From Leucocoprinus leucothites (lineage: Eukaryota; Basidiomycota; Agaricomycetes; Agaricales; Agaricaceae), in assembly GCA_013368445.1 (NCBI GenBank), contig JAACJO010000028.1, positions 1 to 64,000 of the forward strand: DNA of 64,000 nucleotides, in the 5' to 3' direction. Under the pieces are notes generated by a model. That model did no database searches. It had not been told where the DNA came from and saw only the letters and a list, made by a program, of their open reading frames with translations. A program made the position numbers and the translations under genes. Shown piece by piece: positions 16,653-46,528 of the stretch; positions within the stretch are counted from its first letter, which is position 1, and every line of letters starts with the position of its first letter.

Positions 16653-18027
16653 TGTTACAGCCCAAACAGCATTAGCTGTGAAATCATTAATTTTGATATG
16701 ATATAGTCAATATATTGGGTGACTGTATAGACATTAAGGAACCCTACTGTAAGACCCTAGTGTAACACACACATTCACAAAGGCACAGCACATTTGTGAA
16801 ATGACCATTAATGATCAAGAGTAACAATAGACTATGGGATAACATCAAGACTTAGCAAACATGGTTGGGATATGTACCCTATGACCCTTTGTGATCTTAG
16901 CCTGTAACCAGGATATTGATCCAGTCAAAGTCTTTCTTGAAAGAACAATGACAGACTAACTAATCAGAGATCAAAGGCTTAGCCTTCTGATCCAGACAGG
17001 CACTTGTGTACATTTGCGGAAGACCTATCATTCCAACATTGCTACAGCAGAAGTATACCCTTTCACAAAAGATGGAGAAATTCCACATGGGCACTGAATG
17101 ACCCACTTGACTATAGAACCAGATTAGTGGAAACTAACAGGATGTGTCAGCACTTGACTACTGACTAGTAGACATTGTTACAGTCAGAAACAAGCTTTTG
17201 TGGAACAAGACAATAATCAGCAGTGATAAAGATCTCATCAGATGAGCAGGGGTAAGCACACCTTCATGAAAGGATGTATCAGCACTTAAACCCCAAAGAA
17301 AACCCAGAGATACTTCTATTGGACAACCTTTCAATAAATCTCCTTTTATTATTAACAATGTGTATGTATCATCCATGTAATTACTCCTTTAGTACTTTCA
17401 CAAAACCAATATAAAGCTTTCTTGAGTGTATAGTCTAGCAAGGAATCTCACCTGCTAAGGCTATGCTTAGAGACTGTCCCACACAACATATCTGAGTGAG
17501 TAGTAAAAAGTGTATTGAGCATCCTTTGGTCATAGACCATTGAAGAATTGGAAAACACCTTTCAAGAAAGAACATTACTATGAGATTCATATAAGTTCAG
17601 AGTGTGAAGAAGCCTGGAAAAGACCTATAAGCTGTATATTGCATCTAGTATCCAGGAGTGGTGCTAGTCAGTGTCAGTTGTATTGTGATAGAGCCAAGTG
17701 TTAGCAAAAGTGACAATTTGTGAATACTGGTCTATTACACTTCTGCATTCTAAGGGACTTGTAGTTGTGCAGTGTCACATAACAAGGATCATTGAGTACC
17801 TTTTGTAAACTGGTTATTCTAGTACAAAACCAGTCTACAGACAACTCCCATTATCTATCATTATCAATCTTTGCACTTTTGCAAAACATCTTTCTTTATT
17901 GATTAACCTCCCATGAACTTGTATTGAGTTTAGGAGTGTTGGTTGTTATTGTTATTATTGTTACCTATCATTCACTATCTGACTATATTCCCTTTATTAC
18001 CTTAACAATCACATTTCTGCCTCTTCA
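16653..18027 (+). repeat. 5' LTR of element F
   Basis: 1375 bp, TGTTACAGCCC...CTGCCTCTTCA. Similarity to the 3' LTR continues through CTGCCTCTTCA and then stops sharply at TCTGGAGCCC, which may contain the primer-binding site. No tRNA match is established. Confidence 0.85.
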
Positions 18028-18118: not shown

Positions 18119-19850
18119 TTGCATCAGCAAAAAAGGACTCTTGACAATATCATCACCAAGAACACAGAATCATCAGAAATTGATAACCAGAGTCATCAGA
18201 TGCACACTTTGCAAAGAGCAGGTGTCACAGAACCAGTAGATAACCCAGAAAGGCTGCTTTCAAGAAGAGGAAAGAATAGACAAGTGACTATGTCACCTGT
18301 AACCCCACTTCCAAACACAGTTGAACATTCTATCTACCAAACACCTACTCTAGGTTTACCAACAGACATTGAACCAAATCCATTCATTGTGTCTTCAGAC
18401 AAACCCAGAAGGACCCTGCCAGGTCATTTTGCAAATCTGGGTCCACAAACTCAACCACAGCCAATTCACAAAAGTCAGAATTCTACTTCCACAAACTCAC
18501 AGACTCATTAGTCACAGACCCAGAACCAAAGTATTACACAAAATTCAAACTCAGACAGTATGCCTTCTACTCCAAATATACCTATGCCCTCTACTTTGGG
18601 CACCCCCAAGTGGGATGGTAGTTTGGGGACACTTAGGAATTTCCTAAGGATACTAGAACATTTATTTAAAGTGACCAGCACCACATCAGACATAGAAAAG
18701 CTGAATTGGACAACTGGTTACATTGATGCAGACATTAGCAAAGAGTAGTCCAGCTTTCAAGAATTCAAAGATAATGATTAGGCTGCCTTCATGAAAAGAC
18801 TCAAGAAAGAGTATCCCAAAATGGTTGAAGAGGAGCAAGATTCCATGAACCAGCTTCATAAGCTATGCCAAAGCAATCAAGGCATTAGCTTAGTAGATGA
18901 AGACCAATTACTTAGTTTTAAGAGACACTTTCTCTATATTGCACAGAAGTGTTTAGAACCACTAGCTGTAACTGGGAATCATGAACTTGTTGAAATGTTT
19001 GTACGAACATTAGACACTACCTTCCAGGATTCCTTAAATGCACAACTAAGTATACAAGGAACTGCCAAGGTCAATGCAATAGGAAAAAGCAGACAGGAGG
19101 ATCCTTACACTTTAGAGGAAGTGATCAATAAAGTGGTAGAACTAGTTAGTGGAAAGACTATTGTACAAGCAATGAAGTATGCCCCAACTAGCATAATAAA
19201 AAGAGAAAAGGCAGACATGGAGCTGTGAGCACCTATAGCTTTCATGAAAGAAGAAGCTACACAAAAAGTGACTCTACCTTTACTGCCAGACATAGATTCA
19301 TTGCAACAAGAAATCAATATATTGAAAACTATGTATGAGAAACAAGAGAAAGAATGAGAAAAGCATGAATGGTTGGTGCAGAGTGCACTAGATAGTTTGA
19401 AGACTATGATGCAGAACAATACATCACAGTCATCTAACTCACCAGTCAGGTATCAGCAGAGTCACGAAAATGTAGCACCTCCATGAATGATCTAAAAGTG
19501 TTACTACTGTTTTGATACTGGCCATTTGTTCATGATGTGTCCTGTAAAAGCAGAAGATGAGAAGAAAGGCTTAATTTTGGTTGAAGGATTCTCAGTTCAT
19601 TTCATGAATGGAGAAGCCATACCATGTGAAGCCAACATTTCAATTAGAGATTGCATCAAGAAATATTTACTAGCTACTATAGCTGCAGTGGCTCTGCAAG
19701 AATATGATGAAGACTTTCATGACTTCTTTGATAGAGTGCCAGACACCAGTTATGTAACAGTTGTAAACTCTCAGATGACAATTCAGTCAAGACCACAAGC
19801 ATTTGTGAGCAAGTCCTCTCACAAAGTGGATCAATAAAAGAATAAATTAT
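18119..19850 (+). pseudogene. Gag of element F, broken
   Basis: Segments in shifting frames read as one Gag. They comprise a Gln/Thr/Pro-rich start, a capsid-like stretch at 18560-19228 (TPKWDGSLGTLRNFLRILEH, then FVRTLDTTFQDSLNAQLSIQ) and a zinc knuckle CYYCFDTGHLFMMC at about 19499-19543. Stops near 18511, 18748, 19228 and 19490 break it. Confidence 0.75.
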
Positions 19851-20715
19851 CTAAACTTGAGGCACTGTTACAGAAAGCAGGTATTGAGGACTTGTCATCT
19901 GAGTCAGAAGAAGAAATAGAAGTCTTGTTAGCAAAGCTAGCTAAGTCATTTACTCAGACAAGAAAAGCAGAAAGCTCAACTAAGAAGTCAGGTTTCTAGA
20001 AGGTCTGAGGAAGAAGCCTGCTGTTGAGAAAAAGGTTTGATTCCAAAGGCAAAAGGTTTCTGAGGACAGTAAAACAAAGAACTCAGAAGAATCAGAAAAT
20101 GAATTAGAGAAAGAAAAAGGGACTCAGGGTGATAATTGAACTTTGACCACCAAATTGCCTGAGTTCCCTTATAGAAAGGTACCATCTATGGTGCCAGTGG
20201 TTGAAGTTCCCCCTATGCCAGTGCATTATATGTGACAATATTCTACAAAAGTGCCAGGCTACAAGTACAAGGCACTGGTAGAGGACAGTGTAGATCTGCA
20301 AGAAATAGTAGAAAGAATTATGGAAAGCAAGATTAAGCTCACTTCATGAGAACTCATGGTAGTGTCACCTAAGATAAGGGCAGCTGCTAAAGAGAACATT
20401 TCTGTGAAACAAGTATTAGCAGAGGAATCAAGTGACAAGGATAAAGGGGCATTTGATAAAGTAGAAACCTCAAATGGAATAGTCCCCACAGTAGTAGAAG
20501 TTAATTCATTAGAAATACCTACTAAGGTACAAGGTGAGGTACTAGATGAAGACAGAAAGCAAATAGAGGCATGGACCATTGTGGACCTTATCTTGCAGTA
20601 TCTTGAAACCTTAGTGCCAGAAGAGAGAGATTGCCAGGTTTTCTCAAACTTGTCAGAAGGATTCAAGGAAGTAGCAGGCAGTCTGGCTTCACTAAGAGTA
20701 GTGCCAACCTTAATA

Positions 20716-21075
20716 AATGGAGTTTGCAAGGAAGAGATGCTTCTTGACAATGGGTCACAAATTATCTCTATGGATAAAAAGACTGCTGCAGCAGCTAAGA
20801 TTACTTGGGATCCTGCACTAAGCATTAATATGCAGAGTGCCAATAGAGGGATTACATGAATGTGTGGACTTGCAAAAAATGTACCTTTCACCTTCAGGGA
20901 GGTAACAATATTATTGCAAGTTCACATTATGGAACAAGCACTGTATAGAGTGCTACTAGGACAGCCTTTCAATGTCATTACAGAAAACAAAATAGTAAAC
21001 CAGAGGGATGGAAATCAATATCTACATATAACTTACCCCAACTTAAAACTCAAGGCAACACTACCAACCTATTAG
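20716..21075 (+). pseudogene. Aspartic protease of element F
   Basis: Reads INGVCKEEMLLDNGSQII, with DNG in place of the catalytic DSG, then FTFREVTILLQVHIMEQALY and VLLGQPFNVITE, typical of this Gypsy clade. One stop follows NRGIT. The Ser-to-Asn change and the stop suggest loss of activity. Confidence 0.75.
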
Positions 21076-21113
21076 AAAGGTCAGTTGCCTCAAGCAGTTA
21101 GGGTAAATTTTCA

Positions 21114-22607
21114 GTGAGCCTCAATGAGTTTGAGTCCATCCCCAGAAGAGAGGTTCCCTGTATAATAGACTTAGATGGAGATGAAAAATCTTACATTGCT
21201 GAAGTATTACCATTGGAAATAAACAACTTAGTAGAAGATGAGATCCAACTATTATATTTAGCAAAAGGGCTAAAGCACTCAGAAGTATCTGAAAAGGCAC
21301 TGTTTACTCAGTTCATACAAGAGCTAATGCCTAGTAGTGGGACCTTGAAGACAGTAGTTGTAGTAAATAAAGAGCCTGATTCAGAGGATCTGGCACTTTG
21401 TTTCATGAAAAAGTATAAGCCAGTAGCATTGAAAGTAAAACCCATATTAGGGGAGCTCCCAGAATGCTTTAGGATCATTTGCAAAATAACAGGTGACCCT
21501 TTAGCAGAATTGCCTAAGCTACCTATACACCTGCCCAACTTTCAACCTAAAGGATGATACACTCTTGAAAGAAAAGATAAGATGGATCTAAAGCATAATG
21601 AAGAGTTCTTATGGCCTGAGGAGTGAAAGCTAATGCATTGGATGATAGCAGAACACAATGAAGCCTTTGCTTGGGATGATACTGAATGTGGTAAATTTAA
21701 GGAGGAATATTTCCCTCCTATAGATATTCCAACAGTTGCCCATACACCTTGGGTTGAGAGATCATTTAGAATACCCCCAGGAATTTATGACAAAGTCTGC
21801 AAAATGATTAAAAGAAAGATAGACACTGGTGTGTATGAACCCTCAAACTCATCATATTGTTTGCAATGGTTCTGTGTTATTAAAAAGGATGGCAAAAGTC
21901 TAAGACTTGTGCACAGCTTGGAACCTTTAAATAAGGTGACCATTGCTCATTCAGGTTTACCCCCAGCTACAGAGGAACTAGCTATGCATTTTGCGGGATG
22001 GGCATGTAATGGAATTTTGGATTTGTATGTGGGTCATGATGAGCGAGTCTTATCTGAGTCTTTGCAAGACCTCACTACATTCCAGACTCCATTTGGGGCA
22101 CTCAGACTGGTAACATTACCAATGGGCTGGACTAACTCAGTGCCAATCTTTCACAATGATGTGACTTACATACTTTGCAAAGAAATCCCAGAGTATACCA
22201 TGCCTTATATTGATAATGTACCAATGAGAGGACTGGCAACTAGGTATGAAAAACCTAATGGAACTTGTGAAGTCATTAATGAAAATGCTGGCATTAGAAG
22301 ATTTGTAATGGAACATTTTGAGAACATGAATAGAATACTACAGAGAATGAAGTATGCAGGTAGTACCTTCTTGGGACCAAAAACCACTATGTGTGTGGAT
22401 CACATCACAATAGTGGGGTTTGACTGTTTATATAAAGGAAGGAAACCTACCACAGATACTATTGGAAAGATCATGAGGTGGGGTCCCTGTGAAGACACCA
22501 CTGATGTGAGGGCCTTTCTCAGAACTGCAGTCCAATGCCACAATCATATACCAAACTTTGTGACAGTAGTAGCTCCATTATATGAAGTTGTCAAGAAAGA
22601 CATCTAA
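21114..22607 (+). pseudogene. Reverse transcriptase of element F
   Basis: A leader (21114-21557) precedes the RT frame at 21633-22607. Motifs in order are NSSYCLQWFCVIKKDGKSLR, the TTFQTPFGALRLVTLPMGWT block, the active-site strand YIDNVP (22204-22221; the second catalytic Asp is Asn), and the thumb with DTTDVRAFL. The frame closes at VVKKDI-stop exactly where the 4.6-kb insert begins; the connection subdomain resumes at about 27262. Confidence 0.85.
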
Positions 22608-29199: not shown

Positions 29200-29804
29200 T
29201 GTCATGACCCAATGCTTCCAACTGGCCTGGCTGGTAATATCTTACTTAGAATCTTTTTATGCATGTTTTGTTTTCTATCTCATCTCTTCAGCTTGCTTCC
29301 ACTTCATTTGCTCCACTCTTCTTCTTTGCCCTTTGTCTTCTTGTGCATTGTATTTGGACTTTCCCATGTCATGTCATGTTCCATTCCCCTTGTCATTTTT
29401 AGTTCCCTTCCAATGTCTCAGATATTCTTATCTTCTAGCCTTTCCAAATCATTGGATAATAATTATCCTCTTATCCTTTTTCTGCAATATCTTTGTTTTC
29501 CTACTAACCAACCCTATCCACTATATCATATATAAGTAGTCAAACTTGTACCATATTCCTCAGTCTGATAATCAACTAAGTCATGTGTTACTACTTTGTC
29601 TGACCCCCACCCTCTCCTTGCCCTCCCATCTCTATCTGTTTCCAAAATCTGGGTCAGTGTCAGTAGTAGCACAACACATAAGTTGAGGCCAAGACCCACT
29701 CCCATGTTCAACAACCAGATCAGTCATCTCTGCTCCTCTGTCCTAGACACCTGGTCTTGAGCATTGGCTCCATCCCCTGTCCTTTAGTAACCCAGTTCTT
29801 GACA
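29200..29804 (+). repeat. 5' LTR of element B
   Basis: 605 bp with TG...CA ends, followed by GTATTATCAGAC, which resembles the tRNA-iMet-type primer site TGGTATCAGAGC (tentative). Confidence 0.93.
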
Positions 29805-29871
29805 GTATTATCAGACTTTGCCTTGCTACTGTTACATCATCCCTCTGCTCTCTTCTCTCATCTTTGTTATG

Positions 29872-31465
29872 ACAAACACCTGCACCACAGCAAGGCATCA
29901 GCCTGCTGCCACCACATCTACCACTCAGGAGCCAAAATGCTCCAACTCTGTCCCAGCTACCCTGGCTGAAAGCTCTACTTGCAGCTCCAGAAATAATTGT
30001 ATTCCTAGTTGTATCCACTGTTCATGTCATCTAAATCCCAATTTGCCTTCAACTCCCCAGCCCTCTCAAATCCCTCATCCTACTCATCTATTGCCTCACC
30101 ATCATGACACTTGTCCTCCTAGTACTCCTGCACCTCCCAGCAGTATGCCACCCAATTGGGATCCATCCAGTCCTTCAGAACTGGGTGATGAGGATGGTCT
30201 CAACTATGTTGATCCTCCCCACCAGGATGATGAGAACAACAATTGGGAAGATATCAAAGATCACCTTGGTAGCCCTGAGGATCCTGATGACCCCAACAAC
30301 AATGACCCAGATGACAATGACTCATCCTCTTCCTCATCCAACAACTTACCCACTCCTCTACCTTATCCTCATTGTGGTGATTGCTTTGAGGGTTGCCTAG
30401 CTGATGCACTATCCTGGCTTGCTGACAACCTTGACCATCATCCTCAACCTAATGCAGCTCCTGTCAATAAAGCTCACCTACTGGATATGTTCAGCAGAAC
30501 AGACCTGGACAAGCTCAATACCTTCCTCATCCAATGTTGTCTCTATTTCTGCACCAACCTGACCCAGGTCCAGAAGGATAGCCAAAAGGTCAACTTTGCA
30601 ATGACCTACCTCACTGGTGTAGCTCTAGACTGGTTTGAGGTTGCCCTCACTCAGGAGGAGCAAGGTGTCTTCCATGATTGGATTATGGATTGGGATGCTT
30701 TTACCTGTGAGCTCCCACATGCACTTTGGGGTTGCCAATCCGAAATCAGAAGCAGCTAAACTTCTTGATAACCTGCAGATGAAAATGGGTGATAAGATCA
30801 TGACTTACAACATTGACTTCATGAAGTATGCTGCACAGCTTGGCTGGGGTGATGAGGTCCTCTGCAATTGCTACTATATGGGTCTCCCTAATTGCATTCA
30901 GGACCCAATCAGTGTCCACAAACAGGGTAAACCCAGCACCTTCCAGGAGATGCTCCATATGCCTATGCTCATTGATGGTTGCTATTGGGAATGCAATTGC
31001 AAACAAGCCCATGCCCATGCCATGGAAAAGGATCTTGCCAAGTGCAAGCAATCCAAACCCTCTAACTCTTCAAATAATCCTCAGCCTAATCCCCAGTGCA
31101 GCTCTGCATCACAACCATCTAACTTTAATCAGAGCAACAGCAACAGCAACAGCAGCAGCAGCAACAGCAACAATAATCACAATACCTCTCAGGCCCCCTC
31201 CAAATCTACTACCCCCACTCCATCTACCTCTAACCAGCAACACTCTTTGACCTGTCCAGCAAAACTGAATATTTTTGATAAGCTAAGCAAGGACAGCAAA
31301 TTGACTCCCAAAGAGCGCAAATGCCATATCAATGAAGACCTCTGCTTATTCTGCAGTGGTAAAGGTCACAAGGTTGACCAATGTCACAGGAAGCAGAATA
31401 GGGCCAAGATCCACAAGGTTGAAGTGGCTCTGGCCAAGGACTCTGAAAAGAGTTTGGGAAAATAG
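29872..31465 (+). pseudogene. Gag of element B
   Basis: The first frame (29872-30759) begins with a Thr/Pro/Ser-rich leader and an acidic Asn/Asp stretch. It then enters capsid with FSRTDLDKLNTFLIQC and TYLTGVALDWFEVAL. A frameshift near 30700 moves it to the frame ending at 31465, with an Asn/Ser tract (CAG/CAA repeats at about 31134-31170) and the zinc knuckle CLFCSGKGHKVDQC. One frameshift is the main lesion. Confidence 0.85.
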
Positions 31466-31609
31466 AGAGCAGCCCTCAGGACTCCACATAGACTGAGGGT
31501 CACATTAAGCTCATCTGTGCACCAGAGAGTCTCCTCTACCTCAATGCATCCGCTCTTTCCAATCCCAATTCCCTTCCTGTTTCACTTTCTTCTTTAATTT
31601 GTTCATCTG

Positions 31610-31929
31610 ATAATATCCAATGGCTCCCTTTCAGTGCTCTCATCAACTCTAGCTCTACTCATTGCTTTATTGATTCTGATTTCACTCACACCCATTCCCT
31701 TCCAACCTCTCCTATTCCTCTGATTGAGCTTTGCCTATTTGATGGATTGTTGAATAGTTTTATTACTGAACTAGTGAATCTTCCTGTGATTTTTCCTACT
31801 GGTGAATCTATGACTCTTGACCTATATGTCACCTGGCTCGACTCTTCCTGCTCTGTGGTTCTTGGACACAACTGGCTCACCCACTACAATCCATTGATTG
31901 ACTGGGCTTCAAGCAGTATTACATTCTGA
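31610..31929 (+). pseudogene. Aspartic protease of element B
   Basis: Reads [16 protein letters not shown] and [20 protein letters not shown]. The family form has DSG at the active site; here it reads NSS, so the catalytic Asp and Gly are both changed. Element E shows the same pair of changes. Confidence 0.8.
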
Positions 31930-31935
31930 TCACAT

Positions 31936-34820
31936 TTGCCAGATACTCCCACCCCTTCTGTTTGCATTGCATCTGCTTCTATGGTGGTTCCTGCATCATC
32001 ACCCGATCCTAGCCCAATGGCTAATGCCCTTCCTCTGGATTCATCACTATCTGGGACCCCTTCATCCACTTCTGATTCTGTTCCTGCACGTCCTCATATT
32101 TTGCTCATCAATGCTCCTGCTTTTATTCACACTTCACATCTTCCTGGCTCAGTAAATTTCCATCTCAACTTGAACTCAACATCTGCTTCCACTGGCTTGG
32201 CTCATGTATCTGATGATTCAGCAGACCTCTCTAATGTGCCCAGTGAATATCATGAATTTGCCAACATCTTCAGCAAGGCTTGTGCTGATACTCTTGCCCC
32301 ACATCACCCTTATGACTTCAAGATCAACCTGGAAGAAGGTGCTCAACCTCCTGTTGGCACCATCTACTCCCTTTCTCCATATGAGCTTGAGGCTCTCTGC
32401 GAGTTCATTGATGAGCACATCAACATTGGATTTATCTGTCCCACTTCTTTGCCTCATGGCACACCCATTCTCTTCATTTGGAAGAAAGACAGTTCACTTC
32501 AACTTTGTGTCGACTTCCATGGGCTCAATTGGCTTACCAAAAAGGATTGTTATCCACTTCTGCTCATTTCCAACCTCCTTGACTCTCCCCACAAAGCCTG
32601 CATTTACACCAAGATTGACCTCTGCCATGCCTACCACCTTGTCTGCATCGCTGAAGGTGATGAATGGAAGACAGCCTTCAGGACCCTCTATGGCTCCTTC
32701 AAGTGGCTTGTCATGCCATTCAGTCTTACCAATGCACCCACAGCCTTCCAGCAGTTTATGAACAACATCTTCTCTGACCTCCTCAATGTCTGTGTGATGG
32801 TCTATCTTGACAATATTCTCATCTACTCCAACAATCTTGACTCACACAGTAAACATATATGAGACATCCTGAAGCAGCTCTGCAAGCATGGCTTATATGC
32901 TAAAGTGGATAAATGCAAATTCCATTCTGACTCTGTTGAGTACCTCAGATACATCCTCTCTCCAGCTGGTCTCAAAATGTCAGAAGACAAAATCAAGGCT
33001 ATCCAAGAGTGGCCTGAACCTAAGAAGATCAAGGACATACAGTCCTTCCTAGGTTTCACAAACTTCTATTGATGCTTCATTTACAACTATTCTGACATTG
33101 TTGTCCTGCTTATGTACCTGACCTGCAAATTGGCTAAGTGGAACTTTGATAACAAATGTTGTGAAGCCTTCAACTCTCTCAAGGAAGCATTCACCACAGC
33201 CCCTATCCTTACTCATTGGATTCCTGACTCCCAGATCATCATTGAGACTGATGCCTCTGATTATGCCCTAGCTGCCATCCTGTCCATTGTGATGGATGAC
33301 AATGAAGTTCACCCTATTGCCTTCCATTCCCATACCTTCAACATGGCTGAGTCCAACTATGATACTCATGACAAGGAGCTCCTAGCTATCTTTGAGGCTT
33401 TCTGCATCTGGCAGCATTACCTTGAAGGGGCCTCTCTTCCTATCAATGTGGTTACCAATCACAAAAATCTTGAATACTTCTGCACCACTAAGATCCTCAC
33501 CTATTGACAGGCTTGCTGGTCCGAGTTCCTCTCCCAGTTCAACCTCATTATCCATTTCTGACCTGGCTGACTCAGAACTAAACCCAATGCTCTCACTAGA
33601 TGATGTGACATCTACCCTAAAGGGGGAATAATGGCTATGTGTCAGTCAATCCACACAATTTTCGACCTGTCTTCACTCATAAACAACTCTCAGCTTCTGT
33701 TTGAGCTACTTATTTTTCCACTCCTTCCCTTCACACAGCCACCATATTAGATCTTGAAAACCTCCACTCTGACATCCTTACCTTGCTTCCACAGGATCTG
33801 ATCACTTCAACCCACATTTTCTCACCTGAAGGTCACTAGTCAGTTGACTCCACTGGCTTCCTAAGACTTGATGGCAGAATCTATGTACCTGATGTCAACA
33901 ATCTTTGACTCCAAGTCCTTCAGTATAAACATGATCACATCCTCTCTGGCCATTTCAGACAGAACAAGACTCTGGAGCTCATCCAATGTGAGTACACTTG
34001 GCCAAATATCCGATCTGAGGTCAAGGATTTCTGCAAATCATGCATCACTTGTATGCAATCCAAATCTCAGTGTCATAAGCCCTATGGAAATCTCAAGCAG
34101 CTTCCTATTCCTGAACACCCTTTGAATTCAATCTCTATGGACTTCATTGAAAAACTCCTGACCTCTTCTGGCTTTGACTCTATCCTTGTAGTCATCAACT
34201 GACTCTCCAAACAGGCTATCTTCATTCTGACCCATGACACCATTACTTCCACAGAACTGGCTCAGCTCTTTGTCATTCACATATTCTCCAAGCACAGTAT
34301 TCTCTCTCATGTCACATCTGATTATGGTTCAGAGTTCATGTTCCACTTTTTCTGATCCCTTGGCAAGGCTCTGGACATGTGCCTACATTTCACTTCAGGT
34401 TATCACCCTGAAGGCAACAGACAGATGGAATGTACCAACCAGACTTTGGAGCAATATCTTTGCATTTACTGCAATTACCAGCAAGACAACTGGTCAGACC
34501 TCCTTCCACTCACAGAATTCACCTACAATAATGCCCCCAGTGCTACCACCAGAATCTCTCCCTTCTTCACCAACAAGAGTTACCACCCCAACCTCACAGT
34601 CTATCTGGAGCATGATATTGCATCAGCCCATACCTGCAACTTCACAGTCAATCTCAATGATCTGCATACCACACTCAAAGCTGAAATATCCAAGGCACAA
34701 AAACAGTATCAACAATCTGCAGATGCAAGACAGTTACCAGCTCCTGACTTCCAGATCAGCCAGAAAGTCTTCATGAAAGCTCAGTTCTTCTGCACCACTT
34801 GCCCCTCCAAGAAACTTTCC
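31936..34820 (+). pseudogene. RT-RNase H-integrase of element B
   Basis: RT (about 32250-33070) has GTIYSLSPYELEALCEFIDE, FRTLYGSFKWLVMPFSLTNA and MVYLDNILIYS (YLDN instead of YLDD, 32803-32814). RNase H has IIIETDASDYALAAIL (about 33240) and the HDKELLAIFEAF helix. Integrase follows with frame changes (about 33880-34370), then FTSGYHPEGNRQMECTNQTL, including the catalytic Glu, and the conserved SPFFTNKSYHPN region. Multiple stops (for example 32862, 33507) inactivate it. Confidence 0.9.
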
Positions 34821-35265
34821 AAATGTTACCCTGGTCCATATGAAATCATCACTCAGCCTGGCTCTCACTCATTCACCCTTCACCTTCCTGATTCCATGTG
34901 CACTGTTCACCCTGTCTTCCATGTGTCTATGCTCAAGCCATCCACACCCAACACCTTTCCCAATCATACAGAACCAGCTCCTGCACCTGTTGTCATCAAT
35001 GGTGAACTGGAATATGAAATCAACTGCATTGTTGACTCTAAAATCGATCACTGTTGTGCTTGTAAACTCCTATACAAGGTCATTTGGTCAGGTTACAAGG
35101 ATAATAAATAAGAATTGTCTTGGCTACCCACAACTGAGCTTGCACATGCAGCCGAACTTGTTGCTGGTTTCCACACTGCTTATCCTGACACGCCTGGTCC
35201 ACTTCTGCTATCCTAGACTCCATATTGGCTTGCATTATTCCTTGCATCTCTTCTCTCTGGACTAA
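34821..35265 (+). pseudogene. Integrase C-terminus and chromodomain of element B
   Basis: GPYEIITQPGSHSFTLHLPD and VHPVFHVSMLKPS are the GPY/F-type end of integrase. A chromodomain follows: EYEINCIVDSKIDHC, LLYKVIWSGYKDN, then after a stop at 35109 LSWLPTTELAHAAELV. Chromodomains direct chromovirus integration to histone-marked heterochromatin. Confidence 0.85.
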
Positions 35266-35533
35266 CTTCCTTCTGTTGAGTACTTCTACCATGAACTTTT
35301 CTCCACTGATTATTCTTATCTTCAATCCTAGTTATCCTGTATTGCAGTTCAGCTACATGGACTTAACAATTCTTATCTTGACATCTTTCTATCCAATCTC
35401 TATATTAGGCTCAATTTTTTCACACTTCAAAGCACAGGCAAGAGCATCACATTCAACACAGCTACCAACAGCAAGTCCAATATACAGCAAGATACAATGT
35501 CCAACAAGAAAACCACTATGACAAAACAGCCAA

Positions 35534-36798
35534 TCACTCTTTCCCACTCTCACCCACACCCTCCCCATCATCCTCCTCTTCTCCATCACCTTCCTCATCT
35601 CCCTCAGCTTCCTTGGAAAGACCCAATCTGGATGCTGTGGCTTCCAGTGATTCCCCACCCAGTGTTGCCACCCCAGCTGCCTTCTTCTTCCACTCCTCCT
35701 CCTCCTGCTCCTTAGCCTTCTCATATGCATTGTTGCTTATCAACAAGCCTTGCCACATACAGCATTCAAAAAACACCTTGAATTCCTCCACCAACTCATG
35801 CCACTGCTCATTCCCCCTTTGCATCAACCTCATCACCCGCTCCTGCTGACCACCAAGCTCAGCTTGCAACTCACACACCTCTGCCACCAACTCAGTCATG
35901 ATTGTCCAAGTCACACACATCTCGACAATCAAATCATGCATCTGTTCATGAGGTGCCTTGTCCACCTCAGATGGAAATGTGCAATGCTGCTTCAAGCTGT
36001 TGCAGGCCTCACACATGAACTTGTTACTACAAAGTTCTGTTAGCCATGTGTCAATGCTGGTTGAAGAGACAAAACTTACTTATCTGATTGCACTTTGCAG
36101 TCCTTCCCCAGTTGTTGGCACTGCCCACATTCATTCTGTCCCCTCATCTTGACCCTCCTCCCTTTATCATCATAGTTTCCCTATTTCTTCTTGGGAGACT
36201 CCTCAATCTCAACATCTGAGTCATGATTGGGCGTATACAACCCACTGTTGCTGGTAGAAACTCACAAAGGACCCAGAGTGGGCCCTCAGATGATGCCTTT
36301 TCCAACATTAGCCACAGCAGCCCTTAGAGGTGGGAGATCTCTTGTGCCCATCGTGGGTATATTTGTTTTGGCCTTCTTAGCCATGGGACCTGTCTCTGTG
36401 TCCACCTTCTGCTTTGTGGGAGCAGCTCCCTTCACCTTCTCCTTTCCTTTGCCTTTGCCCTTCTCCTTCTCTTCTCCCTCCTTCTTCTCCATCTCCTCCT
36501 TCTCTTTCTTTTCCTTCTCTTCCTTCTCCTTTACTGCTGCTTCTTCTCACCATCCCCTCTCCTCTTCTTCCCTCCATTTCTGCTCTTCCTCCTTGGCCCT
36601 CTTCCTTTCCACCTCCTTGGCCTCCTTCAGCTTTCTCAACTTCCCCCACTTTTTCTCTTGCTCCTCTTCTGCCTTCTGTCTCCTCTTCTCCTCTGCAGCC
36701 TGCTCCAGCCGATCTTCTTCCTCCATCAATGTGAGTGCTTCATCCAGGTTGATGTCTGAGAGTGGATCCGTTACTTGGGTCTGAGAGTTAGATGCCAT
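35534..36798 (-). pseudogene. Antisense two-exon gene of element B, paired CX2CX6C motifs
   Basis: Exon 1 starts with ATG at 36798 and runs to 36080. A 53-nt intron (36079-36027, GTAAGT...GCTAAC...TAG, a good fungal branch point) is removed, and exon 2 (36026-35534) continues in frame to a stop. The product of about 403 residues has an acidic start (MEEEDRLEQAAEEKRRQKAE), a Glu/Lys-rich predicted coiled coil and a basic stretch. It continues with CGQCQQLGKDC and, just after the splice, CEACNSLKQHC, then a helical region and a Glu/Asp/Gly-rich C-terminus. Four in-frame stops lie in exon 1 (including TGA at 36547 and 36286); each is one C-to-T step from a sense codon. The motifs recall half-sites of Zn2Cys6 clusters. 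It lies antisense to the element between pol and the 3' LTR. Confidence 0.65.
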
Positions 36799-36850
36799 GG
36801 TATATGAAGGAGGTTAAGAGGGAAAAAAGTTTAAATTTTTTGCACAGTGG

Positions 36851-36858
36851 AATTTATA
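36851..36858 (-). promoter_or_regulatory. TATA-like box of the antisense gene in B
   Basis: TATAAATT on the minus strand, 53 nt upstream of the antisense ATG. The same box, with CAAACTCTG before it, stands at the same spacing in element E (59190-59197). Confidence 0.5.
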
Positions 36859-36927
36859 CAGAGTTTGAAATTAATTCCCACAATCAAATCACAGGGCTTC
36901 AAGGGCTCAGCCCTAAGGGGGGAATAC

Positions 36928-37532
36928 TGTCATGACCCAATGCTTCCAACTGGCCTAGCTGGTAATATCTTACTTAGAATCTTTTTATGCATGTTTTGTT
37001 TTCCATCTCATCACTTCAGCTTGCTTCCACTTCATTTGCTCCACTCTTCTTCTTTGCCCTTTGTCTTCTTGTGCATTGTATTTGGACTTTCCCATGTCAT
37101 GTCATGTTCCATTCCCCTTGTCATTTTTAGTTCCCTTCTAATGTCTTGGATATTCTTATCTTCTAGCCTTTCCAAATTGTCAGACAATAATTATCCTCTT
37201 ATCCTTTTTCTGCAATATCTTTGTTTTCCTACTAACCAACCCTATCCACCATATCATATATAAGTAGTCAAACTTGTACCATATTCCTCAGCCTGATAAT
37301 TGACTAAGTCACATATTACTACTTTGTCTGACCTCTGCTCTCTCCTTGCCCTCCTGTCTCTATCTGTTTCCAAAATCTGGGTCAGCATCAGTAGTGGCAC
37401 AACACATAAGTTGAGGCCAAGACCCACTCCCATGTTCAATGACCGGATCAGTCATCTCTGCTCCTCTGTCATAGACACCTGGTCTTGAGCATCGGCTCCA
37501 CCTCCCATCCTTTAGTAACCCAGTTCTTGACA
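36928..37532 (+). repeat. 3' LTR of element B
   Basis: 605 bp, near identical to 29200-29804, and followed by CACTC, the second target-site copy. Confidence 0.93.
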
Positions 37533-38989
37533 CACTCTTGAGTTGGATGAAGGCATGGGCACTCAGACAAGAAAATGCTAAGACTATTTGTCAATGGCTT
37601 TTCAAGGATATAATATGCAGGTGGGAAAATCTAGTCAAAATTGTAACAGACAATGGCTCCCCTTTCAAGAAAGCAGTCAGGTGGCTTGTGGAAAAGTATG
37701 GAATTAAAGGAGTCACAATTTCTCCTTACAATTCACAAGCCAATAGCACTATAGAAAGATGTCATGAGCTGAACCTCAAGAACGGCTGACAGTTCAAACT
37801 TGGTATTATTTTCATGAACTCCTATCCACTTTCACATATTGGTTACCTCGGTTTTTATCAGTCTTTCACCTTCGGACTTATTTTGACATCTTCCATTTTA
37901 TTAATTCATACCACCTTGTTGAAATTTTCTGACAACTGTTTAATAGTAAATTTTCTATCTTCTAGCCTTGTAAAATTTGTGGACTCCACTTTGATTATTT
38001 CTCCATTTACTACTTTGCTTGTTTTCCTTATCCGATCCTATATTCCGCATCATATATAAGTAGCGCAACTTTGTACTTGGATTCTCCAGTCTGATAATCA
38101 ACTTAGCAATATGCTACTTTCCTCTGCTCTCTTATCTTGTCTGAAATCCGGGTCAAGCATCAGTAGTTGGCACAACACATAAGTTGAGGCCACGACCTGC
38201 TTCTGTGTCCGATGACCAGCTCCTGCCTTAACTCTGTCACACCTCTGTCAACCCGGTCCTTGATGTTGGCTCCCTATCCGCAGCGTTTGCGCGCTTAACA
38301 AAAGACCACATTGGGACCTCAGGCAAATGTTATTTAAAGCAACTGGTGGTGAAGTAAAGAAATGGTATTGGTCACTACACCATGTAATGTGGGCTGGTAG
38401 GATCACTATTAGAAAAGGGACTGGGTGTTCACCTTACTTTATGGTAACAGGTGCCCATCCAACTTTGCCATTAGATGTTATTGAAGCAACATGGTTAGTC
38501 AAATATCCTAATAGAATAGTCTCTACTACAGACCTGATAGGACTTAGAGCCCAAGCACTCATGAAGCATGTTTCACATGTAGAAGAAATGTGTTCATAAA
38601 CAAACAAGGAAAAGATAAGGAGGGGTTTATAGCTCAAAAGTGACTTTAAGTATAAAATTAAAGAATTCAACCTAGTACCTGGTAGTTTGGTACTAGTGAA
38701 CAACTCTGCAATAGAAAGCTCTGCTGATAGATAAATGAAGCCTCGCTATCTAAGACCCATGGTGGTTATTAAGAAATAAAAAGGGGGCACATTCATGTTA
38801 GTGGAACTGGATGGGTCAGTGTGGCAAAATAAGGTAGCAGCATTTAGAGTTATACCCTACCTCATGAGGAGGCACATCAAGTTTAGCAAAAAAGTCAAAG
38901 ACTTGCTTGACACCTCTCATGAAGGTCTGAAACTGTTGGAAGACACAGAAGTAGACACCATTGAATTGGCTAATGAAAGTGATACTTGA
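37533..38989 (+). pseudogene. Integrase of element F, C-terminal half, split by A4
   Basis: After element B the catalytic core continues: IVTDNGSPFKKAVRWLVEKY with the second Asp and ISPYNSQANSTIER with the Glu. Solo LTR A4 interrupts it at 37760. Removing A4 and one AAAGA gives IERPHWDLRQMLFKATGG in frame, then GCSPYFMVTGAHPTLPLDVI. The end (38795-38989) has MLVELDGSVWQNKVAAFRVI, the SH3-like C-terminal domain. Stops near 38600-38790 break it. Confidence 0.85.
37760..38300 (+). mobile_element. Solo LTR, family A copy 4
   Basis: 541 bp, TGTCATGAGC...GCGCTTAACA, flanked by AAAGA (37755-37759, 38301-38305). Inserted in the integrase of element F. Confidence 0.93.
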
Positions 38990-39133: not shown

Positions 39134-40444
39134 TTAAGCATGGTTTGCAACATTGTAAATGTTAGTGAGACAATCATGCTCAGCCATAGTGACTTGATAC
39201 TGCTGAGTAACACTCTTGAGAGAAGCAATGGAATGCAACACTTGAGAGGTTGAGTTAGCTAAACCCATCTGAATGACTTTGCAAGAGCAAGTCTGCAGAA
39301 TGGAAGTTTGTAACTCAACAGCTTGAGTCATGAAACCACTCATAGTGTCGAAAAGAGAGTTAGCTAATGCAGAAATATTAGTTCACAAAAAGAAAAACAG
39401 ATTAACAGAGAATGTATCTTGGCCAACAAGGGCTTGGGTAGGACAGATCTCATTGACAGGGCCAGGAGTAGTGGGCTGCATGGTGCAAGCATAAGCCTTG
39501 CTGTGAATGTCTAGGCCAGGGACAAAGGCATAGGGAATGTGCACAGTCTGGGCACAATTGACTACTTGAGCTTCCTACAAAGGAGAGATCAGATATGGAA
39601 CAAGCTTTTATAAAGGGGATAACTCATGGGTACAGAAGGTACATAATGGACAATTTCCTTGTCAACCTGCATAGGGCCCTTGAGAGTAGTAAGAAGCCAT
39701 TTGCAAAATGAAATAAAAAGAAGAGGCTCACTGGCTGAGTAGTAGGTTGAGGAGTGACACTATGAGGGACGTTACCAGCAGCACTGCAGTGGTTGGTAAT
39801 CTCCACTTCATCATCCTCTTCATCTGTGGAAGACTTTACATATTCCAGGGAGATTGGCTTAGTACATTGATGCTGCCAGTGAACCCATGATTCAGTTCAG
39901 TTTTCAAGAAAGCACATTAGCAAAAGACAAAACCCACCTTTTTGGAAGGTGCCTCAGTGGCAGTAGCACCAGACTCAGCAACTGCACCAGCTCCACCAGA
40001 GGGAGGGTCTTGACTAGAGTTGCTAGTAGAGCTTGCAGTATCACTAGCTTTGGCATTGACCTTATCAAGTTGATTAAGGAACTGCCTCAGCTGTCCATAG
40101 ATAGGAAGAAAACCATAAGTAGGATTGACATCTTGCTTGAACTTGTCATAAGCATACTTAGCGTTTTTAACAATGTGAACAGAATCATCATTTGTGAAGG
40201 TAGCAGCATCTGTTTTGAGGCAGTTCAAGAAAGATTCCTTTAAATAATAGACATCAGTAATGAAGAATAAGTAATGTTCATAGAAACAAACCATGGGTTC
40301 AGCAAGGCTGTCAACAGCTGTTTTGACTGATCCCTTAGTAGTCTGGTTGGATGCAAAGTGTTGGCAGTGATGAAAGATGTTCAAGATTGCATCTGTCAGC
40401 TTGATGTAAGTGTTTTTGGTTTTGCCAGTGAAGTCAGAAGACAT
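39134..40444 (-). CDS. Antisense four-exon gene 1 in element F
   Basis: Exons are 40444-39938, 39872-39732, 39678-39634 and 39574-39134. Introns are 65, 53 and 59 nt, all GT-AG and all phase 0. They give one frame of about 377 codons with a single in-frame TGA in exon 4 (after NLFFFL). The N-terminal 140 residues look globular and helical (FVFC-intron-free core with TDAILNIFHHCQHFASNQTT). A Ser/Thr/Gly/Ala-rich linker follows, then an acidic DEEDDE patch, a Pro-rich stretch and a C-terminal helical region ending NIYNVANHA. I recognise no domain. The gene is antisense to gag-pol and far better preserved than it. It could be an element gene or a captured host gene. A single TGA may be a real lesion. 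Confidence 0.6.
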
Positions 40445-40884
40445 GTCAGAAAAAGAGAGTTGAGCAAGTTGTGTCTCAAAGCTGAGGTTTTGAGAATGAG
40501 AGAAAGTACAGTAAAAAAGGAGGCTTTTATATCCAAGCCCACCTCTGCCAATAGGGAATAAAAATGTTCACAAAGACAACTGCTTGGACTCTGAGTGGAT
40601 TCTAGTGACAATGCTAATGAGTACAGTGGCACAGATGGGCAGGAAATCCAGTACTCATAAAAATTGCAGCCAGAAAGGGCACAGTCAGAGTGGATGGTAC
40701 CCACATTGCCAAATAGCAGTGAAATTTAGGACCATTTGCAAATATGATGGAGCATATGCCAACTCTAGACAAATTTCAAATAAAATTTTAAGAGTTGCAC
40801 AGATATTGATTAAGGCAAGAACTGCCAGATTTAGTATCCCCAAGGGTTTCTTTCACTACAATAGTTTTGTGAGGACATGATCTG

Positions 40885-40901
40885 TTATAGTGAGGGGGAG
40901 A
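40885..40901 (+). other. Internal copy of the element F polypurine tract
   Basis: TTATAGTGAGGGGGAGA here is identical over 17 nt to 45134-45150, which abuts the 3' LTR. It could be a central polypurine tract or the scar of recombination between related elements. Confidence 0.5.
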
Positions 40902-41372: not shown

Positions 41373-44300
41373 CTATTCTTCACAACACTTGCCTTTAGCC
41401 CTGGTCTTACCCCCAGACTTAGTAGTGGGGACAGGAGATGAATTATGAGACAGGCCAGCAACAACTGGAGTGTGATGGTCAGCCCAAGTTAAGGGGCACA
41501 GGAGTGGAAGAGAGCAACCTTCTTCTCCAATCTGATCACAAAGGGAATGAATGAACATATTATGAGCACTGAGCAAGTTACTTGCAGTATTGTGAGGGGA
41601 AAGTCCAATGGGGGCAGAGACAGCCTGACAAGTGGCAGCAAAGACAGTGGCACAGGTAGCCTTATCAGGGACTAACTTGCTATCCACCCACTAATCCAGG
41701 TTGGGAGAAAAGTACTCCTCAGGTGTGAGGAGCTTGTCCACAAATTCAGAAACCTGAGCTTGGTAGCTGGTGAGTGCCAACTTGTAGCTATGGTGACCAA
41801 CCTCAACCATGTCCCAACCCACAGCCAGGACATGAAGACAAGAAATAATATCTGGAAAAGTAATCAGATACAATGCAACAAGGAAAGATAGATAAGGAAT
41901 GAAGAACTTATGGGAGTTGCTGGTGAGAGTTGCTGGATGAAGTTGTTCAGCCCAAAAATTCCATAATTCAGTGGGCTTCTGATGAGTGCAATGCACTGAA
42001 TTTTTGTCCTTGCACTGTATGCAAGGTAATATGCCATCAAGAAGTTGGAAGGGCTTGGCATGCATAGCAGGTTTAGAGGTACAGGGCTGGGGATCAGAAG
42101 CAACACACTTGTCCAAGCACTTGGCAATACAATGCAAGCACTTGTCACAAGCCGAACCTCAAGAATGGCTGACGGTTCGAACTTGGTATTATTTTCATGA
42201 ACTCCTATCCGTTTTCGAATATCGGTTACTTCGGTTTGCATCAGTCTTTCGCCTTCAGACTTATTCTGACACCTTCCATTTTATTAATTCATACCATCTT
42301 GTCGAAATTTTCTGACAACCGTTTAATAGTAAATTTTCTATCTTCTAGCCTTGTAAAATTTGCAGACTCCACTTTGATTATTTCTCCGTTTACTACTTTG
42401 CTTGTTTTCCTTATCCGATCCTATATTCAGCATCGTATATAAGTAGCACGACTTTGTACTTGGATTCCTCAGTCTGATAATCAACTTAGCGATACGCTAC
42501 TTTCCTCTGCTCTCTGTTCGTCCTCTGTTCTCTTACCTTGTCTGAAATCCGGGTCAAGCGTCAGTAGTCGGCACAACACATAAGTTGAGGCCACGACCCG
42601 CTCCCGCGTCTGACGACCGGCTCCTACCTTACCTCTGTCAACACCTCTGTCCAACCGGTCTTTGACGTCGGCTCCCTATCCGTAGCGTTTGCGCGCTTAA
42701 CAGCACTTAAGCTTACCTGCAGAACCCTAGAATAAAAATAAAAATAATTAGGGAAGCATAAGATGAGTATTCAAGAATGAAACCATACTAAGTCAGATAA
42801 TGAAGAAGGGGTGAAAAATTGAGGGCAGACTCCCAAGAAAGAGTGTTCTGCCTCCATTCCAAACTCCCTAACCAAGTTACAACCTATAGTGGAGAATAAC
42901 CAATAATCAGTGAAAGGCCAGATAAAATAAATAAAGGAACCTATGTGAAGAGGAGGCAGAAGGATCTGCTCAAGCACTAGAACCACTAGTCTGTACTGAA
43001 ACAGGAGCGATTCCTAGGCGACAGGGGATTGACAGTGGTAGAGCAAGAGGACAAGTAGGGAGTTCAATAGAGTCCATCACCAACTACTGATGAGAGCTCA
43101 ATATATCAGATTTGATGTTTTCTCACAAGGACTTGGTAGCTGGAGTACTGATATGTAGGGAATTGGCCAACTGTTTCGAGGGGCCAGGTTGAGGGCCTAA
43201 AGCTCTAGGGTGCCAAAGACTATCCTCAATCTTGTTGTCATCTGTGAACTCCATATATGGAGGGTTACTTAGTCCTGGAGGGAAAACACAGATGGCAATG
43301 AATTAGAAAAGTCACCAAAGAATAATAAAATATGTACCAGAACTAGTCCTGGGCTTGGGATGAGCCTTGGATCTTGCATTTACCAATGGAATTGTCAGAG
43401 AAGATGTACATGACAAAGACAGATTGGGGAGATACTTGGCTATTAAATTGTCAGCACCAATTGCAGGTGCAGGAGAAGGGAGACCTGATATTAAGAAATA
43501 AAATGAATAATTTGGGAAAGAAATAGTCATATACTCACTAGAAGACATATTGGCAATAGGGTGAGTCGGTTCCTGTGAAACTACAAGAGGAGAGGAAGTC
43601 TGCAGAGGGGCTGGAGATGGCGGATTCAATACTCTGGCAGAACCACCACAAGGAGGAGGCCATGGACACTCATCAGTGGTGGTAACTGCAGGAGCAGACA
43701 GCTTCTCTAGAGGATGAGCTCATTGACATTGGGTGGGTTCCTCATTGATATAAGCATCCCAGCACTTATGAGGCTTGATCTGTGAAAGCATGATCAAAAT
43801 GCAGGACTCTAGCAGGCCTAAGTAGCTAAACTCACCTGCCACAGCCAAGGAGGGCAGTGGAAAATAGAGTTTTTTCTGGGTTTGGGAATGAATAAATAAG
43901 GATGGGGTGGGATACAAATGGTCAATTGAGGGTGCACCAGACTAGGAGACAAAGGACAGTTGGGCTGTGAAAGTGGTTCATTGTCAGATGGACTGACTAA
44001 GTTGATTGGGGAATCAGGAGCTTGAGAAGGAGCAGGAGAGAATGGTGGAGGAATTGGAGAGGGCAGCAAAGGCTCATTATGATGGTTGGCTGTCTGTTCT
44101 GGGACAGGGGTAGGAATATGGGGGGTGAGGGCCATAGCTGGGGTGATCTGATGTACTTGAGTGTTAGCATCCCGAAATTATTGTAACAGATGGGCACAGT
44201 TAGCCCCAAGCAACTGGAGTTGTGCAGCATGAATAGGATGTAAGGCCTGGCTTGAGAGTGCAGCTCATTGTTGTTCAATATCCCCGAGAGCAAGCACCAG

Positions 44301-44378: not shown

Positions 44379-45150
44379 GGCTAGCAAAAAGATATGAGTC
44401 AACCAGAACCTACCAAGCAGAGTGGAAACACACATTGAGCAGCAGGTGGAGGATATGCAGGCAGCATGAAGTCAGGTAAGGCAAGGATGGAAAGAAAGAG
44501 TCAAGTCCTGAGCACTAGGACTTTAAATAAGCCATCTAGAAATAAAGTTAGAAAGAAGTCAGTCAAGGACATGACAACATACAACTGGACCAAATAAACA
44601 ATAATAAGAGCAGCTGTCATGAAGTTCTTGAACACTTGGAAGGTTGGGTCAAGGCAATAGAGGACATATTGGGCATGCAGCAGCTTTGCCATGAGCAGGT
44701 CAACAATCTGTGGCAGAGAAAGAGGGAGTCCATATCTGTCAACAGGGCTAATGATTGATCAGATCTGATTGCCAACCAATAGTAGACCTTTGCAATCATT
44801 CTAAAAATAAAATACATGTGTCCAATCACAAGCCATCTTTTGGCCTCAATCAATTGTGGAGCTTGAATTAGCATGGAGTGTTCCAGAATGTTCTAGAACA
44901 AATCTGAAGAAGTGATGGACTGGGTATTGGACAACTCAGAGCTGGTCCCAACTATAGTCAAAATAACTTTTACAGATGTGGGCATAGGACTGTGTTCTTC
45001 ACAAATAAAGCATGGGACACAATAGCAGTGATGAAAATGAAGATGACTTAATCACACAGAGGCCATTTGTTAGCAAAAGGAAATAAGATTTGACCTCCTA
45101 AGTCCACAACAAGCAGAGACTGAGGGCAGTCATTTATAGTGAGGGGGAGA
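44379..45150 (+). other. 3' untranslated region of element F with polypurine tract
   Basis: No sense ORF. It would contain the promoter of antisense gene 2. It ends in GTGAGGGGGAGA immediately before the LTR, the expected plus-strand primer. Confidence 0.5.
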
Positions 45151-46528
45151 TGTTACGGCCCAAATAGCATTAGCCATGAAATTGTTAATTTTGATGATAT
45201 AGTCAATATATTGGGTGACTGTATAGACATTAAGGAACCCTACTGTAAGACCCTAGTGTAACACACACATTCACAAAAGCACAGCACATTTGTGAACCAA
45301 CCATTAATGATCAAAAGTAACAATAGGCTACAGGATGACATTGAGACTTAGCAAAAGTGGTTGGGATGTGTACCCTATGACCCTTTGTGATCTTAGCCTG
45401 TAACCTGGGTATTGATCTAGTCAAAGTCTTTCTCAAAAGAACAATGACAGACTAACTAATCAGAGATCAAAGGCTTAGCCTTCTGATCTAGACAGGCACT
45501 TGTGTACATTCATGGAAGTCCTATCATTCCAACATCACTACAGCAGAAGTATACCCTTTTGCAAAAGATGGAGAAATTCCACATGGGCACTGAATGACCC
45601 ACTTGACTATAGAACCAGATTAGTGGAAACTAACAGGATGTGTCAGCACTTGACTACTGACTTGTAGACATTGTTACAGTTAGGAATGAGCTTTCATGGA
45701 ACAAGACAATAATCAGCAGTGATAAAGATCTCATGATATCAGATGAGCAGGGGTAAGCACACCTTCATAAAAGGATGTATCAGCACTTAAACCCCAAAGA
45801 AAACCCAGAGATACTTCTATTGGACAACCTTTCAATAAATCTCCTTTTATTATTAACAATGTGTATGTATCATCCATGTAATTACTCCTTTAGTACTTTC
45901 ACAAAACCAATATAAAGCTTTCTTGAGTGTATAGTCTAGCAAGGAATCTCACCTGCTAAGGCTATGCTTAGAGACTGTCTCACACAACATATCTGAGTGA
46001 GTAGTAAAAAGTGTATTGAGCATCCTTTGGTCATAGACCATTGAAGAATTGGAAAACACCTTTCAAGAAAGAACATTACTGTGAGATTCATATAAGTTCA
46101 GAGTGTGAAGAAGTCTGGAAAAGACTTATAAGCTGTATATTGCATCTAGTATCCAGGAGTGGTGCTAGTCAGTGTCAGTTGTATTATGATAGTGCTAAGT
46201 GTTAGTGAAAGTGATGATTCACGAATACCAGTCTATTACACTTCTGCATTCTAAGGGACTTGTAGTTGTGCAGTGTCACATAATAAGGATTGTTGAGTAC
46301 CTTTCACAAACTGGTCATTCCAGTACAAAACCAGTCTACAGACAACTCCCATTATCTATCATTATCAATCTTTGTGCTTTCACAAAACATCTTTCTTTAT
46401 TGATTAACCTCCCACAAACTTGTATTGAGTTTAGGAGTGTTGGTTGTTATTGTTATTATTGTTACCTATCATTCACTATCTGACTACATTCCCTTTATTA
46501 CCTTAACAGTCACATTTCTGCCTCTTCA
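45151..46528 (+). repeat. 3' LTR of element F
   Basis: 1378 bp, near identical to 16653-18027. Similarity ends at CTCTTCA, after which CCAT repeats the left flank. Confidence 0.87.

Follow-up and report, generated by a model that had tools for sequence, protein, structure and literature searches.

Gene A, a spliced gene on the minus strand of the 64,000-nt stretch of Leucocoprinus leucothites DNA analysed here (the window), is very probably a real, self-contained antisense accessory gene of an LTR retrotransposon, element F, in which it lies between the integrase and the 3' LTR. The proposal that this is a genuine antisense gene of the element came from a sequence-only reading of the window, and it is supported by the position of the gene in all nine copies found in the same genome, by the conservation of its introns, by selection on its reading frame and by its occurrence in a second, distant family of elements.

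Gene A and element F in the window

The sequence-only reading had assembled gene A from four exons (40444-39938, 39872-39732, 39678-39634 and 39574-39134). This chain is exactly present: it joins in phase over 1134 nt to give 377 codons plus a TAA, with three GT-AG introns of 65, 53 and 59 nt and a single internal TGA. However, a fourth intron is concealed in its last exon (39417-39364; 54 nt, phase 1). The TGA lies in this intron, and the corrected model therefore comprises five exons, four introns and 359 codons. In the window, exon 1 (39938-40444, 169 codons, with the ATG at 40444) is followed by intron 1 (39873-39937, GTGGGT...GCAG, phase 0), exon 2 (39732-39872), intron 2 (39679-39731; 51 nt long in copy C5), exon 3 (39634-39678), intron 3 (39575-39633), exon 4 (39418-39574, 157 nt), intron 4 (39364-39417) and exon 5 (39134-39363), which ends in the TAA stop codon and for which AlphaFold predicts a helical hairpin. 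At the donor of intron 4 the window copy reads ATACAT, whereas all eight other copies read GTATGT, GTACGT or GTACAT. Since this donor is mutated, normal splicing of intron 4 would be impossible in the window copy, and its open-frame status as given below counts exons only.

A candidate promoter, the TATA-like TATAAAAG, is located at 40524-40531 (minus strand), 87 nt upstream of the ATG, and is identical at this distance in all nine copies.

The length of the chain was compared with 150 dinucleotide shuffles of the region. When up to three introns of 45-75 nt and one stop were allowed, the real region yielded 385 codons, while the shuffles averaged 212 and went no higher than 363; with four introns and no stop, it yielded 368 codons against a maximum of 341; and its longest plain frame (175 codons) was shorter than the longest shuffled one (197 codons). 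The single-copy chain thus beats chance, but only by 22 codons over the best shuffle, which is not overwhelming, and the proof of gene A therefore comes from the comparison between copies. That a chance open frame in a decayed element was combined with splice sites chosen by the reader, as the 363 codons reached by permissive splicing in shuffles might suggest, is scarcely credible given that four introns and the frame are conserved across separate insertions and the protein is conserved in a distant family.

Element F is bounded by a 5' LTR (16653-18027, plus strand, TGTTAC...TTCA), preceded by CCAT, and by a 3' LTR (45151-46528, plus strand), followed by CCAT. The two LTRs are 94% identical: they differ at 74 of 1372 aligned bases, and 68 of these differences are transitions, an excess as expected of cytosine methylation decay. 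The gag gene and the first part of pol (18557-22604, plus strand) were located by tblastn with the frames of other copies; they are decayed and are interrupted after 22604. As had been claimed for the sense gag-pol, the window copy is riddled with stops (14 in 1873 codons aligned to the frames of other copies). The C-terminal part of the integrase (37533-38989, plus strand), identified by comparison with other copies, is split by an LTR-like insertion at 37760-38300. A second LTR retrotransposon, element E (29201-37532, plus strand), is nested in the integrase gene and is one of the insertions that break F in the window. A polypurine-tract-like sequence, TTATAGTGAGGGGGAGA, occurs directly before the 3' LTR (45134-45150) and again as an internal copy (40885-40901, plus strand).

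Judging the size of element F by the nearest LTR-like repeats would greatly underestimate it; copy C5 measures about 15.1 kb from one LTR to the other. Those nearest repeats, at 37760-38300 and 42144-42701, were considered as its LTRs and rejected, as both are insertions missing from other copies; we read them as solo LTRs of another family. With regard to classification, the LTR pair starts with TG and is flanked by a short target-site duplication, and in C5 RT_RNaseH is followed by Integrase_H2C2 in one frame, both above the Pfam cut-off, as in Ty3/gypsy elements. For rve, the matches in pieces of C10 and C3a stayed below the cut-off, Ty3_capsid scored 22.2 bits in C5 against a cut-off of 29.1, and the F pieces scanned gave no Pfam match to an RT family.

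Conservation among copies and constraint on the reading frame

A search of the organism's own assembly (47.0 Mb in 110 contigs) returned nine copies of gene A. Eight are complete, with identities of 87-100%, and an insertion divides the ninth, C3b. In the alignment, introns 1 to 3 are bounded by GT-AG in all nine copies, and intron 4 has a GT donor in eight and a TAG acceptor in nine, so that the expected homologues with conserved intron sites in other copies of the element were indeed recovered. The length of intron 4 varies from 54 to 65 nt through differences in a T run, and length differences that would break the frame are present inside introns 2 and 4. Exons free of premature stops were found in five copies (the window, C33b, C8a, C33a and C8b), while of the other four C3a carries one stop and C5, C10 and C3b carry stops together with exon frameshifts. 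Exon 1 by itself is open in six of the nine, with a single internal stop in each of C3a, C5 and C10.

In all nine copies gene A is antisense and directly adjoins the integrase end. Sequence of the 3' LTR lies beyond it in seven of the nine stretches fetched; in C10 this LTR was placed by position only, and in C3b it was not seen. This is the location of an aORF-3R, antisense to gag-pol and between pol and the 3' LTR. The 3' flanks are common to C33b and C8a, and likewise to C33a and C8b, and the nine copies therefore represent at most seven insertions. The two F copies on contig C33 (12-42 kb) match the two on C8 (147-186 kb), 3' flanks included, which suggests duplicated segments. Occurrence in nine copies at no more than seven sites, together with five further copies in the second family, is also as in an aORF-3R and differs from a one-off transduction.

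Four elements with both LTRs have different target-site duplications: CCAT/CCAT in the window, GCAA/GCAA in C33a, CCGG/CTGG in C5 and ACGC/ATGC in C10, the 3' LTR of the last being a partial match only. The duplications of C5 and C10 each contain one C/T mismatch, as CpG decay would give. All four introns of gene A are present in each of these elements.

Selection was examined on biallelic, gap-free columns, with three-allele or gapped columns dropped and CpG sites treated separately; the expectation was derived by placing the same base changes randomly in the same triplet contexts in 2000 simulations. Among 159 biallelic non-CpG differences in the seven insertions, 83 were nonsynonymous, compared with 104.9 expected. 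The resulting dN/dS-like ratio was 0.56, a value that none of the 2000 simulations reached, and comparison of dN/dS among copies, the check named in the sequence-only reading, thus came out in favour of a coding frame. At CpG sites the ratio was 1.01, which is neutral and as expected for post-insertion decay. When all nine copies were included, the ratios were 0.59 (non-CpG) and 0.95 (CpG). The other five frames gave 1.40, 1.61, 1.09, 0.75 and 1.47; the frame with 0.75 belongs to the sense strand and also shows a deficit (P 0.014). These results show purifying selection on the reading frame of gene A, the strongest of the six frames. Singletons, expected to be mostly post-insertion, and shared differences gave similar ratios (0.60 and 0.53), and the test therefore pools constraint during active life with later decay. 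Among the eight copies other than C3b, mean divergence was 0.099, 0.063 and 0.120 at codon positions 1, 2 and 3, and the introns gave values of 0.07-0.15.

Protein searches of the own genome with gene A also gave weak matches on C35, C24, C7 and C3, and searches with pieces of these extended the second family to five copies (C35, C24, C7, C3 and C102). Protein identity to gene A is roughly 35%; it amounts to 32-36% over the C-terminal part and to 25-41% over shorter pieces from the N-terminal side. In all five copies an integrase end follows past the 3' end of the gene, on the opposite strand and at a distance of about 160 nt or less in four and of 3.3 kb in C3. The four family-2 copies that were read are all decayed. 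By eye, intron 1 (after PPKK, phase 0) and intron 4 (phase 1, preceding the conserved hairpin) are at matching sites in four copies. The donor of intron 1 reads GAAAGC in C3 and GCAAGT in C24, C35 and C7, which would correspond either to a GC-AG intron or to a decayed GT. The acceptor AG of intron 4 is kept in C7 and C3, where AATAG fits the frame, and is lost in C24 and C35, which read AATGG at this site; CTCTAG in C24 and C35 was rejected as the acceptor, as it breaks the frame. Introns 2 and 3 look as if they correspond to those of gene A, but exon 3 does not align and they are therefore not claimed as matching. Over 75 codons of exon 5, the window copy and C7 had identities of 0.44, 0.67 and 0.41 at codon positions 1, 2 and 3 (the C35 and C24 rows were left out of this comparison). 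The candidate promoter has a counterpart in this family, TTTAAAAG, located at -83/-84 in three of four copies and not found in C35.

The integrase ends of the two families are still 73-77% identical at the DNA level in the four family-1 matches listed, so that the integrase is apparently the slower-evolving of the two genes, and the occurrence of gene A in both families indicates that the association between gene and element is old. This bears on the possibility, raised in the sequence-only reading, that gene A is a host gene captured by the element and merely carried along. A multi-intron gene such as this does resemble an ordinary nuclear gene. Nevertheless, protein searches of the own genome matched only the two element families, as far as the best candidates scored can tell (a very distant relative could be missed), the protein databases gave nothing, and both the old association and the constraint on the frame speak against a passenger. 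We accordingly found no support for a carried host gene and regard it as highly improbable, the version left standing being an ancient capture.

The gene A product, its possible role and known parallels

Gene A would be carried by a large Ty3-like LTR retrotransposon (about 15 kb), transcribed from its own TATA promoter and spliced through four introns to encode a product of 359 residues, which would start with a presumably helical part, continue through a low-complexity linker and end in a helical hairpin. The genomic RNA of F would hold the gene A introns as their reverse complement; as such they would be no substrates for splicing and, by established logic, should pass reverse transcription unchanged. 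AlphaFold modelled exon 5 as a two-helix hairpin with a mean pLDDT of 86.5, a fold too generic to be usable for a structure search, and exon 1 with a mean pLDDT of 57.5.

With the first 283 residues of the product, no Pfam family was found at E 1, and with all 359 residues no family, TRP28 of Retand included, scored above its cut-off. A match to Dynein_attach_N in the full product (14.1 bits against a cut-off of 27) was rejected, as was the one match in the PDB (E 0.13). Neither the gene A product nor alignment A1 matched anything at E 0.01 in a protein database whose fungal coverage is not established, and the 10 pattern matches in viral contigs were none of them confirmed. In the own genome, no stand-alone paralogue of gene A was present among the best candidates obtained with the first 283 residues and two family-2 pieces as queries.

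Maize Grande and Retand are known to carry antisense ORFs in the interval from pol to the 3' LTR (PMC7264820, PMC11963269). These ORFs resemble gene A in position and orientation, in the long region between pol and the 3' LTR and in their presence in most copies; Grande also has its own promoter, where that of gene A is a candidate only. In contrast, gene A is fungal and has four introns conserved among copies, two of them matched in the second family, and neither paper uses the word "intron" in its main text. Furthermore, the gene A product differs from that of Retand in that it gives no TRP28 match above the Pfam cut-off.

Two further systems bear comparison with gene A, the antisense gene brtn of Botrytis and HBZ of HTLV-1. 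Botrytis is an ascomycete, and one form of HBZ is spliced. The brtn gene is an additional antisense gene in a fungal LTR element, as gene A is, and belongs to the Boty/BcGypsy1 elements (Zhao et al. 2011, as cited in PMC7264820 and PMC8365987). HBZ is likewise an antisense regulatory gene of an LTR element, in this case a retrovirus, but its promoter lies in the 3' LTR according to PMC7264820, in contrast to the internal candidate of gene A, and it encodes a bZIP factor of an animal retrovirus. In the literature searched, we recognised no description of an antisense gene with several introns in an LTR element of a fungus. The novel features are a structure of several introns that is conserved, the family of proteins encoded, a second antisense gene arranged in tandem, which lies in a divergent cassette, and a third one carried by the nested element.

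With respect to function, gene A may well regulate the expression or copy number of its own element, a reading that we hold tentatively, by analogy with the unproven role proposed for plant antisense ORFs, and at somewhat less than an even chance. Such a regulatory or self-limiting role fits a promoter-bearing, apparently fast-evolving gene that lies beside a second antisense gene better than a structural one does, and the product would then probably be nuclear. A structural or particle-associated product is rather unlikely: the C-terminal exon, as a helical hairpin predicted with a mean pLDDT of 86.5, could oligomerise, but, as indirect evidence against this, the Grande product is reported as nuclear (PMC7264820), and neither a signal peptide nor a membrane stretch is evident by eye in the gene A product. 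It is also improbable that the antisense RNA rather than the protein matters, by pairing with the RNA of the element and silencing or limiting it. This alternative has been proposed for plant antisense ORFs (PMC7264820), but selection on the protein frame and protein similarity to the second family would be needless for a pure RNA role; the RNA may act in addition to the protein.

Under the preferred reading of gene A as an accessory gene of the element, it constitutes a natural case of introns surviving retrotransposition when antisense to the genomic RNA, because four elements whose target-site duplications are separate all contain the four introns, and a distant family shares two of these introns. 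Elements can thus hold on to introns and accessory genes through repeated RNA copying. Constraint on an antisense multi-exon frame, moreover, indicates that the element needs the protein, which makes its role testable. Should antisense spliced genes be common in the elements of mushroom-forming fungi, they may have been labelled as host genes by automated annotation.

Further antisense genes in F and E

A second antisense spliced gene of F, gene B, lies upstream of gene A in the antisense direction (41373-42158, minus strand, from frames in the window) and consists of a Cys-rich exon and a C-terminal exon. Its constraint was assessed from copies C33b and C5 rather than from the copy in the window, and the two exons are strongly biased by codon position: identities at positions 1, 2 and 3 were 64, 74 and 43 of 85 codons, and 58, 65 and 35 of 70 codons. 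The intron between the exons starts with GTAAGT in C33b and with GTGAGT in C5, and the spacing of the exons differs by 4 nt.

Gene B is located in a cassette that extends from about 40.9 to 44.7 kb in the window and corresponds to the 9.6-12.9 kb block of C33b. Between C33b and C5 the cassette is 54-72% identical, while its flanks in gene A and the LTR are about 90% identical; C33b and C33a are closer to each other here, with an identity of 58-82% in most segments compared and 90% at the far end. In the window the cassette starts near the internal copy of the polypurine tract, which is an exact 17-nt match to the tract before the 3' LTR, and the tract core GGGGGAGA is found at this place in eight of the nine copies, the exception being C3b. 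Judged from these sequence comparisons, this pattern suggests module exchange between related elements.

The third antisense gene, that of the nested element E (35534-36800, minus strand; last exon 35534-36079), belongs to a different sequence type, with 77 matches in this genome at 29-100% identity. When 150 of 364 integrase candidates were scored, at least 21 of the 77 E-type genes had an integrase zinc-domain match within 5 kb; in at least 20 of these the gene was antisense to and downstream of the integrase, and one was on the same strand. Two copies of the gene that were read are open, and one GT-AG intron splits their CX2CX6CX10CX2CX6C motif, recognised by eye, mid-way. The motif notwithstanding, Zn_clus scored 11.2 and 14.9 bits in two copies against a cut-off of 21, below the level for membership of the Zn(II)2Cys6 family, and a protein database search with the element E gene gave nothing at E 0.001. 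A gene of the E type is also found in many other Ty3-like elements, and some of these genes are open and adjoin pol frames longer than 1250 codons.

On a speculative and rather doubtful view, antisense, self-promoted, spliced cassettes would be a standing part of the genome in several Ty3-like lineages here. In F, gene A would be fixed and gene B exchangeable, and the cassettes would act as specificity modules by which an element limits itself or excludes its sister elements, with plus-strand recombination as the means of swapping them.

A Cys pattern similar to that of the element E gene, possibly marking a further gene of this type, was seen by eye in the protein encoded by the sequence adjoining the family-2 copy C35 (L052, 2360-2960, plus strand).
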